Positions 23,422-51,044 of a stretch of DNA of 64,000 nucleotides are shown here, one piece after another. Source of the DNA: Methylohalomonas lacus (lineage in GTDB: Bacteria > Pseudomonadota > Gammaproteobacteria > Methylohalomonadales > Methylohalomonadaceae); the NCBI RefSeq assembly GCF_024808875.1, contig NZ_JANUCT010000009.1:1-64000 (forward strand), read 5' to 3'. Position numbers and translations under genes: made by a program. The number at the start of each line of letters is the position of its first letter. The first letter of the stretch is position 1. The notes beneath the pieces were generated by a model, which was given only the letters and a program-made list of their open reading frames with translations, made no database searches and was not told where the DNA came from.

Positions 23422-23552
23422 TCAGATTTTTTTCGCCGCAGCCAGTTTCCTGGCTATTTCACGGCGCCTCTGCTGACGCGCCCTGATGGTTGCCTGCGCC
23501 TCGCGGCGCCGCTCAGAGTCGCGTCTGGCCGGCGTCTCAGCTTCACGCCTTA
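23422..23552 (-). CDS. Putative -1 frameshift extension of the histone-like protein
   Basis: In the frame reached by a -1 slip at the end of the histone-like gene, 43 codons (VRREAETPARRDSERRREAQ through IARKLAAAKKI) run open to a TGA at 23422-23424. This part is strongly basic and alanine-rich, in keeping with the upstream protein, and has no ATG, GTG or TTG of its own, so it can be translated only by fusion. The transcription terminator directly follows. The alternative is a recent indel or a homopolymer sequencing error splitting one 173-residue gene. Confidence 0.55.
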
Positions 23553-23942
23553 CTTTTTTTTCGTCCGGCGCTTGGCCTTCTTCTTGGTAGTCTTCTTCTT
23601 GCTGGCTTTCTTCTTGGTAGCCTTCTTCTTGGCTACCTTTTTCTTGGCCTTCTTCTTGGTGGCCTTCTTCTTGGCCGCCTTTTTCTTGGCCTTCTTCTTG
23701 GTAGCCTTCTTCTTGGCTACCTTCTTCTTAGCCTTCTTCTTGGTAGCTTTCTTCTTGGCCGCCTTTTTCTTGGCCTTCTTCTTGGTAGCCTTCTTCTTGG
23801 CTACCTTCTTCTTGGCAGCCGTTTTCTTCTTGGCTGCCTTCTTCTTGGCGGTCTTCTTCTTAGCTACCTTCTTCTTGGCCACCTTCTTCTTGGCGGCCGT
23901 CTTCTTCTTACTGCGAGTTGTCTTCTTCTTACTAATTGCCAT
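23550..23942 (-). CDS. Lysine-rich histone H1-like nucleoid protein
   Basis: A 130-residue protein made almost wholly of Lys, Ala and Thr, starting MAISKKKTTRSKKKTAAKKK. AKKKATKKKAKKKVAKKK-type modules repeat at both protein and DNA level. Such tails resemble eukaryotic H1 C termini and AlgP/Hc-like bacterial proteins, which bind DNA non-specifically. A GGGGAG ribosome-binding site precedes the ATG. The zero frame ends on A AAA AAG and UAA, a -1 slippery heptamer. A TATAAT promoter with phased A tracts lies upstream. Confidence 0.85.
   Translation of the reverse strand: MAISKKKTTRSKKKTAAKKKVAKKKVAKKKTAKKKAAKKKTAAKKKVAKKKATKKKAKKKAAKKKATKKKAKKKVAKKKATKKKAKKKAAKKKATKKKAKKKVAKKKATKKKASKKKTTKKKAKRRTKKK
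23553..23559 (-). other. A AAA AAG slippery heptamer (putative -1 frameshift site)
   Basis: The heptamer is read in the zero frame as AAA AAA AAG and is followed at once by the stop UAA. The same heptamer drives -1 frameshifting in E. coli dnaX and in several insertion sequences. Downstream sequence can form short hairpins, GGCGT/ACGCC and GCGCC-GCGA-GGCGC with a GNRA loop. I see no upstream Shine-Dalgarno-like stimulator. Confidence 0.5.
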
Positions 23943-27329: not shown

Positions 27330-28004
27330 TCAGACAAGCCCTTCCAGCATTGGCACGAAACTTACCATATCCAGCGGCGTTTCTTCATAGCTGTCATCGG
27401 CCTTGCGGGTGATCGCCAGCAGCTTCTGCTCACCACTGCGCCCGACCGGGATCAGCAAACGACCACCGACGGCCAACTGATCCAGCAACTGTTGCGGTAC
27501 ACCGATCGGTGCCGCTGTTACCAGGATACCGTCGAACGGTCCCTGCTCGGGCCAACCGAGATTGCCATCGGCGTACTTGGTGCGGATGTTGCGCAGACCG
27601 AGCGAATGAAAATGCTCACGTGCCCGATCCAGTAATGCGCTGATACGCTCAACCGTGTAAATCCGTTCCGCCAGACCGGCCAGTATCACCGTCTGGTAAC
27701 CGCAGCCGGTGCCGATCTCGAGGACCCGCTTCATCGTCTGACCGGGTGGCAACTCCTGCATCAATGCCTCGGTCATGCGCGCAACGATGTACGGCTGCGA
27801 GATGGTCTGGCCATAACCGATGGGCAGCGCCGTGTTTTCATAGGCGCGGCTGGACAGCGCTTCGTCGATGAAAATATGCCGTGGCACACGGCGCATGGCG
27901 TCGAGTATGCCTTCATCGCGAATGCCCATGGCGCGCAGCTTTTCCACCAGCCGGTCGCGTGCCCGCTGCGATGTCATGCCGATACCGGTAAAACGTTTAT
28001 TCAT
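27330..28004 (-). CDS. pcm: Protein-L-isoaspartate O-methyltransferase
   Basis: A 224-residue cytoplasmic enzyme that methylates L-isoaspartyl residues in aged proteins so they can revert to aspartate. The SAM-binding motif is [18 protein letters not shown] (about residues 81-98). The family's RVPRHIF and [18 protein letters not shown] are present. It overlaps surE by eight bases and runs straight into nlpD, the conserved surE-pcm-nlpD-rpoS unit. Two further PIMT-like genes occur at 40210 and 50391. Confidence 0.96.
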
Positions 28005-37840: not shown

Positions 37841-40060
37841 ATGCGATTCGTAAAATGGCTACTGCGCGGCCTGTTGCGGCTGCTCTACCGGGTCGACTGC
37901 CAGGGACTCGAGCACTACCACGACGCCGGCGAGCGCGTGCTCATTGTCGCCAACCATACCTCCCTGCTCGACGGCCTGCTGCTGTACGCCTGGCTGCCGG
38001 ATACCCCCACCTTCGCCATCAATTCAAACATCGCCCGCCAGCCGCGGTTCGGTTTCTTCCTGCGTTTCGTCAATCTGTTTCGCATGGATCCGGCCAGTCC
38101 ACTGTCGCTGAAATCGCTGATCCGCTATCTGAATGCCGGCAACAAGGCGGTCATCTTCCCGGAAGGCCGCGTCACGACTACCGGCGGGCTCATGAAGATT
38201 TACGAGGGTCCGGGACTGGTCGCCGACAAGGCCGACGCCATGGTGCTGCCGATCGGCATTCACGGCCCGCAGTTTTCGCCGTTCTCCTACCTCAAGGGCA
38301 AGGGCGTGTGCCGCTGGTTCCCGCGCGTCACCCTGCGTATCCTGCCGCCGCGCCGCATCCATATCGACGCATCGCTGCAGGGCCCGGCACGGCGCAAGTC
38401 GGCGGTGCAGCAAATGCAGGACGTCATGTACGAATTGCACGCGGCGACGTTCAATCAGCGCCAGACTGTCTTTCAGGCCATGGTCAATGCCGCGCGCGAC
38501 AATGGCCCGAAGCGCATCATTCTCGAGGACAGTCAGCGCCAGCGACTGAGCTATCGCCAGCTGCTGCAACGCGCCCTGATTCTCGGTAGCGCGCTGCGCC
38601 GGCAGACCGATGCCGGCGAACACGTCGGCCTGATGCTGCCGAACAGCAACGCCATGGCGATCGGTTTTCTGGCCCTGCAGTACAGTGGCCGGATCGCGGC
38701 CATGATCAACTTTACCGGCGGCGCCCGTAGCGTCATCCGTGCCTGCGAGACCGGCAACGTCAAACGCATCTATACGTCGCGCCAGTTCATCGAGAAAGCC
38801 GGTCTGGAAAACGTGGTCGAGCAAGTCGCCGCCAGCGTCGACGTACGTTATCTTGAAGACCTGCGTGCCGAAATCGGGCTGGTCGACAAACTGCTGGGGC
38901 TGCTGCGATCGCGTTACGCCAGCCGCCACTATCGGCGCATTACCCGGAACCGCGACCCCGACCAACCGGCGGTTATCCTGTTCACCTCCGGTTCCGAGGG
39001 TGTCCCCAAGGGCGTGGTGCTGTCACATGCCAACCTGTTGGCGAATTACGCCCAGGTCCGCTGTCACATCGATTTCCAACCGACCGATCTGGTGTTCAAC
39101 TGCCTGCCGCTGTTTCACTCGTTCGGCCTCAATGCCGGTTTCATCATGCCATTGCTGGGCGGCAGTCAGGTGTTCCTATACCCCACACCGCTGCACTACC
39201 GACAGATACCGGAACTGATCTACGAGCTGGGCGCGACCATCCTGTATGGCACCAATACCTTCTTCAAGGGCTATGCCCACTACGCGCATCCGTTCGATTT
39301 CCACAGTCTGCGCTACACCGTCGCCGGTGCTGAAAAGTTGCGCGACGACACCCTGCAGTTGTGGATGGAACGCTTCGGCATCCGCATTCTCCAGGGCTAC
39401 GGCGTCACCGAAACCAGCCCGGTCATCGCCGTGAACACGCCGCTGGAAAACCGGATCGGCACCGTCGGCCGGCCGGTAACCGGCATGCAGTTCTATCTTG
39501 CACCTGTGGACGGCATCGAAACAGGCGGCCGGCTGGTCGTGTCCGGTCCCAACGTCATGCTCGGCTATCTGCTGGCCGATCGCCCGGGCGAACTCGTGCC
39601 GCCGGAAACCGAACGCGGTCGCGGCTGGTATGACACCGGCGACATCGCCAGTATCGATGACGACGGTTACATCACGATTCTCGGCCGTGCCAAGCGCTTC
39701 GCCAAGGTTGGCGGCGAGATGGTGTCACTGACCGCAGTGGAAGAGCTGGCACAGAAGGTCTGGCCTGACGCCAGCCATTCGGCCGTCAGCCTGACGGATG
39801 AACACAAGGGCGAGAAGATTCTGTTGCTGACCACCGAGCCGGATGCCCATCGCAAGGCGCTGATCGAATACGCCCGGCAACACGGTTACGGCGATCTGTA
39901 CGTGCCGCGGCATATCATCGGCATCAGCGAGATCCCGGTACTCGGCACCGGCAAGACCGACTACAGCACCCTGCAACAGCTGGCCGAAGCCGCCGACGCC
40001 AGCGACGTGAGCTGGATCGACAATCCTGAACAGCTGATTAGCAACTCAAAACAACAATAA
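37841..40060 (+). CDS. aas: Aas-like bifunctional acyltransferase/acyl-ACP synthetase
   Basis: A 739-residue protein of the same architecture and length class as E. coli Aas. The N-terminal PlsC domain has NHTSLLDGLLL (HX4D) and VIFPEGRVTTTGGLM. From about residue 230 there is an AMP-forming ligase domain with ILFTSGSEGVPKGVVLSHAN (P-loop), GYGVTETSPVI and WYDTGDIASIDDDGYI. Aas re-acylates lyso-phospholipids with acyl-ACP at the inner membrane. E. coli Aas is paired with lplT, which is not seen here. Confidence 0.9.
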   Translation: MRFVKWLLRGLLRLLYRVDCQGLEHYHDAGERVLIVANHTSLLDGLLLYAWLPDTPTFAINSNIARQPRFGFFLRFVNLFRMDPASPLSLKSLIRYLNAGNKAVIFPEGRVTTTGGLMKIYEGPGLVADKADAMVLPIGIHGPQFSPFSYLKGKGVCRWFPRVTLRILPPRRIHIDASLQGPARRKSAVQQMQDVMYELHAATFNQRQTVFQAMVNAARDNGPKRIILEDSQRQRLSYRQLLQRALILGSALRRQTDAGEHVGLMLPNSNAMAIGFLALQYSGRIAAMINFTGGARSVIRACETGNVKRIYTSRQFIEKAGLENVVEQVAASVDVRYLEDLRAEIGLVDKLLGLLRSRYASRHYRRITRNRDPDQPAVILFTSGSEGVPKGVVLSHANLLANYAQVRCHIDFQPTDLVFNCLPLFHSFGLNAGFIMPLLGGSQVFLYPTPLHYRQIPELIYELGATILYGTNTFFKGYAHYAHPFDFHSLRYTVAGAEKLRDDTLQLWMERFGIRILQGYGVTETSPVIAVNTPLENRIGTVGRPVTGMQFYLAPVDGIETGGRLVVSGPNVMLGYLLADRPGELVPPETERGRGWYDTGDIASIDDDGYITILGRAKRFAKVGGEMVSLTAVEELAQKVWPDASHSAVSLTDEHKGEKILLLTTEPDAHRKALIEYARQHGYGDLYVPRHIIGISEIPVLGTGKTDYSTLQQLAEAADASDVSWIDNPEQLISNSKQQ

Positions 40061-40064
40061 GCGA

Positions 40065-40229
40065 TCCGCGAATGAATGCGAATACACGCAAATTTAAAAA
40101 TGATGTAATGGTATTTTGAGAAGGCAGCCGCAACGCGGAGAAACAAAAGCTCGGCTCAATTACTTTGCTCCGAGCATTGCTGCATTTTCACAATCAGCTT
40201 GATTGGCGTTTATTCGCGTTCATTTGCGG
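40065..40229. repeat. Inverted-repeat element, copy 2 (after aas)
   Basis: A 165-bp segment with left arm TCCGCGAATGAATGCGAATA and right arm ending TTCGCGTTCATTTGCGGA. The reverse complement of the right arm (TCCGCAAATGAACGCGAATA) matches both the left arm and the left arm of copy 1 at 8811. The interior differs from copy 1 and holds its own GCTCGG/CCGAGC inverted repeat. The right arm runs into the 3' end of the exported PIMT gene, supplying its last codons (..ANERE). Confidence 0.75.
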
Positions 40230-40971
40230 ACGTATCTGATTGATCATCCGGCCTGACCATCGGCACGAAACCGACCGGAATGACGTCGCGGGTCTCGATC
40301 GAACCGTCGGCCTGCTTGACCAGCAACTGCAGGGTCTGGGCAGTGCCCTGCTCACCTACCGGTACCACCATGCGCCCACCGACGGCCAGCTGTTCGATCA
40401 GCGCCTCCGGTATTTCGGGAGGTGCCGCAGTGACGATGATCGCATCGAACGGCGCCGCTTGCGGCCAACCCTGATAACCGTCACCAATGCGCAACTCGAT
40501 CGCATCGTAGCCCAGCTCGGTGAGGGTCGAGGCTGCGCGCCGACCCAGTTCGGGCAGCAACTCGATGCTGTAAACGCTATCGCTGAGTTCAGCCAGGATT
40601 GCCGCCTGGTAGCCGGAACCGGTACCAACCTCGAGCACGCGATCGCCGGCTTCGACCGACGCCAGCTCGGTCATCAGTGCGACAATAAACGGCTGTGAAA
40701 TGGTCTGATCGTGACCGATCGGCAGCGCGCGGTTGAGGTAAGCATTGGACTTTTGCGCCGTCGGTACGAATGCATGCCGCGGCACCCGGCGCAGTGCCTC
40801 CAGCACGCGCTCATCGAAACGCGAACGACCGGTATAGACGCCGGTGTCGCGCGCCTGTGCGCTCACCTCGTCCACCATCCGCTCGCGTTCGGCCTGTCGT
40901 TCATCCGCCATCGCCATTCCCGTCGTCAGCAAGCCTGACACCAGTAATACGTTTATCCACTGTGCAGTCAT
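40210..40971 (-). CDS. PIMT-family methyltransferase with predicted signal peptide
   Basis: A 253-residue protein-L-isoaspartate O-methyltransferase paralogue. MTAQWINVLLVSGLLTTGMAMADE reads as a Sec signal peptide with an AMA-D cleavage site. The core is intact: RRVPRHAFVP, LPIGHDQTISQPFIVALM and the SAM-binding VLEVGTGSGYQAAILAEL. Export would place a SAM-dependent enzyme where SAM is not expected, so either the leader is retained as an anchor or the start is misjudged. The last residues are encoded by a repeat arm. It starts three bases after endonuclease V stops. Confidence 0.85.
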   Translation of the reverse strand: MTAQWINVLLVSGLLTTGMAMADERQAERERMVDEVSAQARDTGVYTGRSRFDERVLEALRRVPRHAFVPTAQKSNAYLNRALPIGHDQTISQPFIVALMTELASVEAGDRVLEVGTGSGYQAAILAELSDSVYSIELLPELGRRAASTLTELGYDAIELRIGDGYQGWPQAAPFDAIIVTAAPPEIPEALIEQLAVGGRMVVPVGEQGTAQTLQLLVKQADGSIETRDVIPVGFVPMVRPDDQSDTSANERE

Positions 40972-40974
40972 GGT

Positions 40975-41619
40975 TCAACCCGATGCGAGTTTGTGCGCCG
41001 CGCGGATCGGCTCCGGCAGACGATAGCGCGTGGTCGTCGCCTCGACCCACTGTACAGCGCTTTCCAGACATACCTTGTGACCGCTGGAAACGTAGATCGT
41101 TTTCACGTGCGCCCGGTTACGTAGTACCACGCCTATGATCTCCTGCTGATGAAAAAGATACTGCTGGCTGCCGCGCTCCGGGGTGACGTCGTGATGTGTG
41201 CCGATCAGCCGTTTCTTGGCCACGCCAATGCTGGGCAAGCCGGTCAACAGGCCGAGATGGCAGGCAATGCCGAAACGCCGCGGATGGGCGTAACCCTGAC
41301 CGTCACAGAGCAGCAGATCCGGCGGCTGTGCCAGCTGTTCCAGGGCCTCGAGCACGGCCGGCACCTCGCGAAACGACAGCAGGCCGGGAATATAGGGCAA
41401 ACGCGTGGGCTGGCGGGCGATCGCGCTGGCGACCACCTCGAGCTCGGGACAGGCCATGACCACGACCGCCGCCCGGGTCGTGTTGCCGCGATCCTCGAAA
41501 CCGACATCAACGCCGGCTATATAACGCACCGGACCGAACTGATCCGTGGTGATGATCTGCTGGCGCAGTTCCTGCTGCAGGTTGATGGCCTGCTGCGGCG
41601 TCAAATCCCAGCTGTGCAT
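40975..41619 (-). CDS. nfi: Endonuclease V (deoxyinosine 3'-endonuclease)
   Basis: A 214-residue DNA repair enzyme that nicks near deoxyinosine and other deaminated bases. Family features are YIAGVDVGFEDRG with a catalytic Asp, YIPGLLSFREVPAVLEAL with the catalytic Glu, DLLLCDGQGYAHPRRFGIACHLG and VAKKRLIG. It is followed after 3 bp by the PIMT-like gene with a signal peptide, so both damage-repair-type genes may share a transcript. Confidence 0.95.
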   Translation of the reverse strand: MHSWDLTPQQAINLQQELRQQIITTDQFGPVRYIAGVDVGFEDRGNTTRAAVVVMACPELEVVASAIARQPTRLPYIPGLLSFREVPAVLEALEQLAQPPDLLLCDGQGYAHPRRFGIACHLGLLTGLPSIGVAKKRLIGTHHDVTPERGSQQYLFHQQEIIGVVLRNRAHVKTIYVSSGHKVCLESAVQWVEATTTRYRLPEPIRAAHKLASG

Positions 41620-41671: not shown

Positions 41672-42070
41672 CTAGGATTTGCCGAGACTGCAACATCCGG
41701 GACCATGCGCCACGACGTAGAGCATGCCGCCCATGATGGCAAGGTTCTTGAAGAACGCATTGAACTCGTCCGGGTTCGACCAGAATGGATGGAAAATCAC
41801 GGTCACCGGGATCAGAAACAGGAAGATCGCCAGAGCCGCCCAGCGGGCCTGCAGACCCAGCAGCAGCAGCAGGCCACCGCCCAGTTCAATGATGATGGTC
41901 AGCACCAGCAGCACCTCCGGCAGTGGCAACCCCTTGCTGGCCATATAACCGGCCGTGCCCTCAAAACCACCGATCTTGTTCCAGCCGGCAATGATGAAAA
42001 TCAATGACAATAGTACGCGCCCGACCAGCGGGGCGTATTTCTGGGTAGCGTTACAGTTTGCCAGGTTCAT
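41672..42070 (-). CDS. DoxX family membrane protein
   Basis: A 132-residue protein with four predicted membrane segments. DoxX signatures are VGRVLLSLIFIIAGWNKIGGF near the start, ELGGGLLLLLGLQARWAAL and FHPFW in the C-terminal half. Members are often involved in redox or thiosulfate-linked membrane reactions, but most, including this one, have no assigned role. It is divergent from apt; the two starts are about 65 bp apart. Confidence 0.88.
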   Translation of the reverse strand: MNLANCNATQKYAPLVGRVLLSLIFIIAGWNKIGGFEGTAGYMASKGLPLPEVLLVLTIIIELGGGLLLLLGLQARWAALAIFLFLIPVTVIFHPFWSNPDEFNAFFKNLAIMGGMLYVVAHGPGCCSLGKS

Positions 42071-42134: not shown

Positions 42135-42650
42135 ATGGAACATCTCAAGAACATCATTCGCGACATTCCCGATTTTCCCAAGGCCGGCATACTGTTTCGC
42201 GATATTACACCGCTACTGGCCGATGCTGAAAGCCTGCGCGAGACGGTCAACGCGCTGGTCGCCCCATACCGGGACGCCGGCATTACCGCCATCGCCGCCA
42301 TGGAGGCGCGTGGCTTCATTTTCGGCGGCCTGGCCGCCGATGCGCTCGGCACTGGCTTCGTGCCCCTGCGCAAGCCGGGCAAACTGCCCTATGAAACGAT
42401 CAGCGAAAGCTACGACCTTGAATACGGCGCTGCCAGCCTGGAAATCCATGCCGATGCCCTCGATGAACGTGATACGGTACTGCTGATTGATGACCTGATT
42501 GCGACCGGCGGTACTGCCGTCGCATCCTGCCGTCTGGTTGAACGACTCGGCGCCCGGGTCGCCGGACTCGCTTTCATTATTGAACTGGACGGCCTGAACG
42601 GTCGCAGCGCGCTGGCCGACTACCACGTCCACAGCCTGGTGCATTACTGA
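42135..42650 (+). CDS. apt: Adenine phosphoribosyltransferase
   Basis: A 171-residue salvage enzyme making AMP from adenine and PRPP. The start is the ATG at 42135 (MEHLKNIIRDIPDFPKAGIL); the frame is open upstream. AAMEARGFIFGG is a conserved loop and VLLIDDLIATGGTA is the PRPP-binding motif. It is convergent with the diguanylate cyclase gene, only 4 bp apart. Confidence 0.97.
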   Translation: MEHLKNIIRDIPDFPKAGILFRDITPLLADAESLRETVNALVAPYRDAGITAIAAMEARGFIFGGLAADALGTGFVPLRKPGKLPYETISESYDLEYGAASLEIHADALDERDTVLLIDDLIATGGTAVASCRLVERLGARVAGLAFIIELDGLNGRSALADYHVHSLVHY

Positions 42651-50280: not shown

Positions 50281-50390
50281 ACCAAGCTTGTGGCCGGAAA
50301 CGACACAGCCGGTAACCGCGCCATGGGCGTACTGCGTTACCGTTTGCGACCCCCCCAATTCAGTTGAACGTCGAAGGAAACGCTTCGAAA

Positions 50391-51044
50391 ATGGACTTCG
50401 AGAAAGCCCGTTATAACATGATCGAGCAGCAGGTGCGGCCCTGGGAAGTTCTCGATCAGGACGTGCTCGACCTGCTGGCCGAGATTCACCGCGAGGACTT
50501 TGTACCCGCCGCCTACCAGCGCGTCGCGCTGGCCGACGCCAGCATACCCCTCGGCCACGACGAGGTGACGATGACGCCGAAGCTGGAGGCGCGACTGCTG
50601 CAGAGCCTGTTGGTCGGTCCCGACGATCGGGTACTGGAAATCGGTACCGGCTGCGGCTACCTGACCGCGCTGCTGGCAAAGTCGGCGCGCGCGGTCGTCA
50701 GTGTCGATCTCTATCCCGATTTTACGGACAGCGCCCGCGACAAGCTGGCTGCGCATGCCATCGATAACGTCACGCTGGCCACCGGTGATGCCGCCAATGG
50801 CTGGCCCGATACGGCACCGTACGACGCCATCGCGGTCACCGGTTCGGTGCCGGTGCTGACCGCGGCGTTCCAGTCGCAGCTGACCATCGGCGGCCGGCTG
50901 TTCGTGATCGTCGGCGAATCACCGGTCATGGAAGCGCGGCTGGTCACTCGTATCGGTGAACGCGAATGGGCCAGTGAAAGCCTGTTCGAGACCGACCTGC
51001 CGGCGCTGGTCGGTGCCCCGAAACGCCAGACATTCACCCTGTGA
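50391..51044 (+). CDS. PIMT-family protein (third paralogue)
   Basis: A 217-residue protein from the ATG at 50391 (MDFEKARYNMIEQQVRPWEV); a TTG start nine codons earlier is open. SAM motif I is [19 protein letters not shown]. The usual PIMT residues 'IGHGQTIS' are replaced by LGHDEVTMTPKLEARLL, so substrate preference may differ from true isoaspartyl methyltransferases. The arrangement thiC (divergent), this gene, rhodanese, tolC recurs in gammaproteobacteria. Its stop is seven bases before the rhodanese start. Confidence 0.88.
   Translation: MDFEKARYNMIEQQVRPWEVLDQDVLDLLAEIHREDFVPAAYQRVALADASIPLGHDEVTMTPKLEARLLQSLLVGPDDRVLEIGTGCGYLTALLAKSARAVVSVDLYPDFTDSARDKLAAHAIDNVTLATGDAANGWPDTAPYDAIAVTGSVPVLTAAFQSQLTIGGRLFVIVGESPVMEARLVTRIGEREWASESLFETDLPALVGAPKRQTFTL

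Follow-up and report, generated by a model that had tools for sequence, protein, structure and literature searches.

The window, that is, the whole stretch of 64,000 nucleotides of Methylohalomonas lacus DNA that was analyzed, contains two adjacent genes on the minus strand: nfi, assigned to endonuclease V by family profiles (40975..41619), and a gene for a leader-bearing protein of 253 residues belonging to the isoaspartyl methyltransferase (PIMT) family (40210..40971), assigned by profile matches, an AF2 model and fold comparison. Profile searches revealed that the family match spanned nearly the full length of both proteins; endonuclease V matched Pfam PF04493 with an E-value of 2.9e-76 and the NCBIfam deoxyribonuclease V model with 1.5e-91, and the PIMT matched Pfam PF01135 with 3.8e-63 and NCBIfam PRK00312.1 with 3.4e-70, above its cut-off. 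The two ORFs were found as the preliminary description had placed them, three bases apart. The nfi stop codon TGA (40977-40975) is followed by ACC and then by the PIMT ATG (40971-40969), with the stop and the ATG in the same frame; since this in-frame stop lies two codons ahead of the ATG, no earlier PIMT start is possible. Compared with known endonuclease V, the nfi product matched over its full length, and its only unusual point was its neighbor. A small membrane protein, which by eye we take to be DoxX-like, is encoded 52 nt upstream of nfi on the same strand (41672..42070, minus). The pair is bordered by a convergent acyltransferase/AMP-ligase-like gene (37841..40060, plus strand) and a divergent adenine phosphoribosyltransferase (apt)-like gene (42135..42650, plus strand), both assigned by eye. 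Elsewhere in the window, we observed an ORF of 130 residues (23550-23942, minus strand) that consists mostly of AKKK-type repeats and resembles a histone H1 tail.

Three strong PCMT-family genes were present in the window, namely the leader-bearing gene and copies at 27330-28004 and 50364-51044, and four weaker matches to the PCMT profile were located on other contigs of the same genome. The first copy (27330..28004, minus strand) is a canonical-type pcm that lies, by eye, between surE-like and nlpD/rpoS-like ORFs. It belongs to the same family as the leader-bearing PIMT and shares 49% identity with it, but it has no leader by the rule described below and its clade is separate at an SH-aLRT support of 97. 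The third gene (50364..51044, plus strand) lies upstream of a tolC-like ORF, as judged by eye; its QTIS motif is absent, and HDEVTMTP stands in its place.

The preliminary description had paired nfi with the PIMT gene, and we examined this linkage in a sample of 185 genomes of the class, 51 of which have nfi. All 51 flanks were viewed, over 1.5 kb for 30 loci and to approximately 2.5 kb for 21, with shorter stretches where a contig ended. In only 3 of the 51 loci (G000, G028 and G120) was a PIMT match close to nfi, and nfi-PIMT was accordingly rejected as a general pair. In two further genomes (G011 and G163), the PIMT lay approximately 2.2-2.3 kb from nfi with other ORFs between them, and an additional adjacent case was present on a Thiotrichaceae contig (L041) from the named-genome scan. 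By eye, the gene order on this contig was that of the window (apt-like, nfi, PIMT, acyltransferase-ligase-like), and the small membrane gene was absent between the apt-like gene and nfi. In all six cases, nfi was upstream of the PIMT on the same strand. The conservation of the gene pair thus held for order and strand, which recur, but was confined to a few lineages.

To place the window protein among its relatives, we assembled rows of 155 distinct PIMT sequences from the class sample, the named-genome scan and chosen fetched stretches; the scan was run with six peptide patterns, including one derived from the window leader, and of the 209 relatives that it yielded the best 80 were retained. 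Two rows with too little sequence (L145 and L157) were dropped from the group counts, which left 153. A quick tree of 154 rows, with L157 left out, gave groups supported by SH-aLRT values of 85 to 98. The window gene fell in a wide multi-phylum clade of 63 rows, whose support was only 85, and this clade was accompanied by a sister leader-gamma clade (26 rows), a leaderless gamma clade (21 rows), canonical rows (19) and remaining rows (24). The canonical controls were 18 of 20 stretches chosen by place together with the window copy.

The AF2 model of the window PIMT, obtained with 49 relatives, had a mean pLDDT of 92.5, with 59 for residues 1-20, 89 for residues 21-30 and more than 90 in the next blocks. 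The best solved structure was E. coli PIMT (3lbf), with a Z-score of 33.6 and an rmsd of 1.3 Å over 207 residues. Residues 2-208 of the E. coli enzyme superposed on residues 25-244 of the window model, which indicated that the window protein is a full E. coli-type PIMT with a leader ahead of it. In comparison with Pcm/PIMT of E. coli (3lbf) and V. cholerae (4l7v), the fold of the mature part, the SAM motifs and the QTISQP motif were common, whereas the window protein adds the leader and an Asp at position 88 (D88, in GHDQT; 40708-40710, minus strand). This Asp was present in 95% of the wide exported clade, and the corresponding position was Gly in 86-100% of the rows in the three other groups.

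The active-site motifs were highly conserved. Each position of QTISQP (residues 89-94; 40690..40707, minus strand) was conserved at 89-100% in four groups of PIMT rows, and SAM motif I (EVGTGSGYQ, residues 114-122; 40606..40632, minus strand) was likewise conserved across groups. In particular, Q89, T90, S92, P94, G116, G118, Y121 and E137 were invariant in all four groups, E114 was conserved at 89-100%, G165 at 98-100% and D176 at 97-100%; D164 reached 95-100% by group, but 48% in the leaderless clade. The SAM motifs were thus found intact, as the preliminary description had stated, with the SAM-site and QTISQP residues conserved as in the canonical rows. As to whether the protein is still a METHYLTRANSFERASE, such conservation would be expected if SAM were still in use. 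A differing catalyzed reaction, one of three options raised previously, was not suggested by the motifs, which were kept alike in the leader and leaderless groups. The protein might be exported and no longer act in repair, its SAM fold having been kept for another acceptor or as an envelope ligand sensor. SAM chemistry is usually taken as cytoplasmic and we know of no periplasmic SAM pool, which speaks for such a role, as does the linkage of relatives' PIMT to a spermine-synthase-like membrane protein (see below); given the conserved QTISQP and SAM-site residues, we regard it as unlikely.

The leader comprises residues 1-22 (MTAQWINVLLVSGLLTTGMAMA; 40906..40971, minus strand), and its translation agreed with that quoted previously. 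Residues 8-22, 15 uncharged residues, form the only run of at least 12 in the protein that lacks D, E, K, R, H, N and Q, and they qualify as a signal-peptidase-I-type hydrophobic h-region near the N-terminus. Additionally, A20-M21-A22 ahead of D23 fits an A-x-A site, with small residues at positions -3 and -1 of the predicted cleavage site. The n-region (MTAQWIN) contains no Lys or Arg and carries only the terminal amine; accordingly, the leader passed the relaxed form of our signal-peptide rule and failed the stricter form, in which a basic residue is demanded. When residues 2-31 were shuffled, 286 of 5000 sequences passed the relaxed rule, and 9 of these 286 reached the observed hydrophobicity of 2.8. 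The leader had been called a clear Sec-type leader; the h-region and the A-x-A site fit a leader of this type, but the word clear goes too far for a single sequence whose n-region has no Lys or Arg and that fails the stricter rule.

The choice of start codon bears directly on this point. The Shine-Dalgarno score was slightly better for M21 than for M1 (-4.3 versus -3.2), a comparison that is not decisive. Starts at M19 or M21 are possible for the window gene, and a start at M21 would give a cytoplasmic enzyme that still holds R29 (40885..40887, minus strand), which was Arg in 100% of the canonical, 100% of the leader-gamma and 98% of the wide-clade rows. Farther downstream, M32 (40876..40878, minus strand) lies inside the helix of residues 26-42 and is mostly Met or Leu in relatives; a start at this position is unlikely, because R29, which the canonical and leader groups conserve, would be lost together with part of the helix. 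Alternatively, translation of the window protein might begin at M21 (or M19) and yield an additional PIMT of the cytoplasm; the upstream hydrophobic codons would then be the remains of a leader in decay, or would serve a dual start from which both forms arise. The n-region without Lys or Arg, the better Shine-Dalgarno score at M21 and the existence of a leaderless clade of near relatives favor this explanation, which we nonetheless consider somewhat unlikely in view of the leaders found in the window gene's own clade.

The signal-peptide rule was home-made and applied as one rule to all groups, with shuffled leaders as a control. Leaders of differing sequence passed it in 57 of the 63 wide-clade rows (17.5 for shuffled leaders) and in 24 of the 26 leader-gamma rows (8.3), compared with 1 of 19 canonical rows (1.1), 1 of 21 leaderless gamma rows (1.2) and 5 of the 24 remaining rows (3.0). 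Under the stricter rule, 71 of 134 non-canonical rows and none of the 19 canonical rows passed. The passing wide-clade rows carried 15 named phyla by taxon label, although they are mostly metagenome bins and single labels may err. The window PIMT resembled this clade in its leader under the relaxed rule, its D88 and its placement in the tree (SH-aLRT 85). In 29 of the 57 wide-clade and 14 of the 24 sister leader rows, approximately half, there was no ATG, GTG or TTG between the hydrophobic segment and the equivalent of R29; these rows therefore cannot yield, from a start codon in that interval, a leaderless enzyme that keeps this Arg, which argues against a cytoplasmic PIMT. Relatives that start past the hydrophobic segment, proposed beforehand as a test of export, do exist, mainly as a separate clade, the leaderless one, in which 20 of 21 rows failed the rule. 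The case for export comes from the family and not from the window leader alone; we consider the claim strong for the family and moderate for the window gene.

The same leaders bear on how the enzyme would be oriented and in what state it would cross the membrane. One option raised previously was that the leader anchors the enzyme facing inward, in which case it would be an uncleaved anchor with the enzyme on the cytoplasmic side. We found no point in support of this, and 22 of the 57 passing wide-clade leaders were of the lipobox type. The n-region was more positive than the 15 post-cleavage residues in 54 of 57 wide-clade and 23 of 24 sister rows, an asymmetry that is in part built in, because a positive n-region is among the requirements of the rule. 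Together with the A-x-A site in the window sequence, these results make an inward-facing anchor hardly credible. Tat-like (twin-arginine) leaders were flagged in one row (L238) and noticed by eye in four others (L040, L067, L232 and L233); such leaders would export a folded PIMT. The enzyme might then leave with SAM bound for one turnover, or it might take SAM from lysed neighbors. The few Tat-like leaders among relatives offer a route for folded proteins, but most leaders, including that of the window, have no twin arginine, and Sec substrates cross the membrane unfolded, so this explanation seems very unlikely to us.

The cysteine content of the cores was also compared. Cysteine was absent from the core in 23 of 26 leader-gamma rows; the contrast was with 8 of 21 leaderless rows (Fisher p 0.0005) and with 4 of 19 canonical rows (p 7e-6), and because the rows are related, these p values overstate the significance. 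This cysteine loss provides independent support for export in the leader gamma clade. The window PIMT has no Cys; its wide clade showed no cysteine depletion, with 27 of 63 rows Cys-free and a mean of 0.84.

In the sister clade, the leader-bearing PIMT gene is usually followed by a gene for a protein of approximately 815 residues with a spermine-synthase-like domain, which matched PF01564 over the cut-off. In the class sample, 27 of 185 genomes contained matches to this partner, comprising 22 strong matches, one fragment at a contig end (G098) and four remote matches. The partner lay directly after the PIMT in 22 of the 23 genomes with a strong match or the fragment; in the other (G131), the two genes were assembled on different contigs, and both lay close to a contig end. 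One remote partner (G091) adjoined a leader-bearing PIMT, and the other three (L220-L222) had no adjoining PIMT in the stretches read. Within the leader gamma clade, the partner was present in 22 of 26 rows, G131 counted; three rows (L048, L133 and L129) had no partner, L129 being also without a leader, and the flank of L067 was too short to judge. In the sequence read around one leader-clade member (L214, genome G057), the leader and the membrane partner were both absent. In two families (L211 in G028 and L212 in G120), nfi, the exported PIMT and the partner gene were consecutive and shared a strand.

In a sample of the phylum, where divergent versions of the pair were also present, the partner was matched in 23 of 398 genomes. 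Of 24 partner loci read, 22 had a same-strand PIMT beside the partner, on its far side in L231 and L233, and two (L229 and L230) had a partner-like gene with no PIMT in the stretch examined. Nineteen of the 22 adjoining PIMTs passed the leader rule, which failed three phylum rows with leaders visible by eye (L224, L226 and L232) and whose pass for L231 is doubtful. Most of the loci L160-L179, L043, L211, L212 and L223-L246 thus share a unit of two genes, an exported PIMT followed by the membrane protein. Among the other 62 wide-clade rows, 47 entered a genome search for the partner; a distant relative was found in 10 of these 47 genomes, with a PIMT adjoining in one, and 9 of the 10 partner-like genes in other phyla stood without a PIMT over the stretch that was read. 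A search of the window organism's genome (98.97% complete) at an E-value of 0.001 did not turn up the partner, nor was it matched among the ORFs around the PIMT; the genome's own PF01564 matches were two, a strong one on contig C8 and a weak one on C15. Most of the wide clade therefore resembles the window organism in having an exported PIMT but no partner.

Hydropathy of 17 aligned members revealed that the partner consists of seven transmembrane (TM) segments, a domain of approximately 375 residues and seven further TM segments. Short loops on the domain's side contained 4.1 Lys plus Arg versus 17.3 on the other side in these 17 members, and 4.2 versus 16.5 in 15 members of a divergent set; by the positive-inside rule, the fewer basic residues on the domain's side place the domain in the periplasm. 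The three remote partners located away from a PIMT (L220-L222) had the same predicted domain side (6.3 versus 15.6), which indicates that this topology is a feature of a wider membrane family and not of the pair alone. Compared with known membrane-fused spermine-synthase-like proteins, the partner shared the PF01564 match and E353, but differed in its 14 TM segments with a domain predicted to be periplasmic; it also scored far below the cut-off of each NCBIfam model that it matched. E353 of its SAM-fold motif was present in 45 of 45 aligned members, and motif I was partly degraded in the divergent set, where G331 was Gln in 15 of 28, the motif being judged within its own family only. Adjacent genes thus encode a SAM-fold domain and a SAM-dependent exported enzyme, both predicted to face the same compartment, which suggests that this compartment may handle SAM or a related compound. 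The linked 14-TM protein is a candidate for SAM supply in the sister clade.

On balance, we lean toward the window gene encoding an exported SAM-dependent PIMT paralogue that repairs envelope proteins in the periplasm. The paralogue would pass through the inner membrane by means of its leader, signal peptidase I would release the mature PIMT after residue 22, and the mature enzyme would repair isoaspartyl sites of envelope proteins with SAM, working alongside the cytoplasmic surE-linked Pcm. The sequences and the model show the fold and motifs of a PIMT, the added leader, the differing leaders of relatives and the cysteine depletion of the sister clade; that the window protein is exported, that it acts on isoaspartyl residues and that SAM or a substitute is present outside the cytoplasm are what we infer. 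Counting against this reading are the n-region without Lys or Arg and the resulting failure under the stricter rule, the Shine-Dalgarno score of M21, the cysteines retained in the gene's own clade, the SH-aLRT support of only 85 for that clade, the failure of the leader rule in 6 of 63 wide-clade and 2 of 26 sister rows, and the fact that a periplasmic SAM pool is not known to us. Of the three options raised previously, the anchor is disfavored and a different reaction is not suggested by the motifs, which leaves arrival of SAM or an equivalent in the compartment as a hypothesis.

In the open-licence literature, a scope that leaves subscription journals and preprints outside, we found no description of an exported PIMT or of the partner pair in the material available, and the available parts of PMC5442454, PMC4287336, PMC4440636 and PMC7451513 describe neither. 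Our preferred reading of the window gene is an exported PIMT, without the membrane partner, that belongs to a widespread type of which we met no description in the accessible part of that literature.

More broadly, and tentatively, many didermal bacteria may carry out SAM-dependent protein repair beyond the cytoplasm. In one large branch, the downstream 14-TM protein might move or present SAM or remove S-adenosylhomocysteine, and the window organism, which has no partner, would need another route for SAM. If this is true, there would be an unrecognized pool of SAM outside the cytoplasm, or some means of managing without one, together with a repair route for long-lived envelope proteins; through the linked 14-TM gene, the question of SAM is open to testing.
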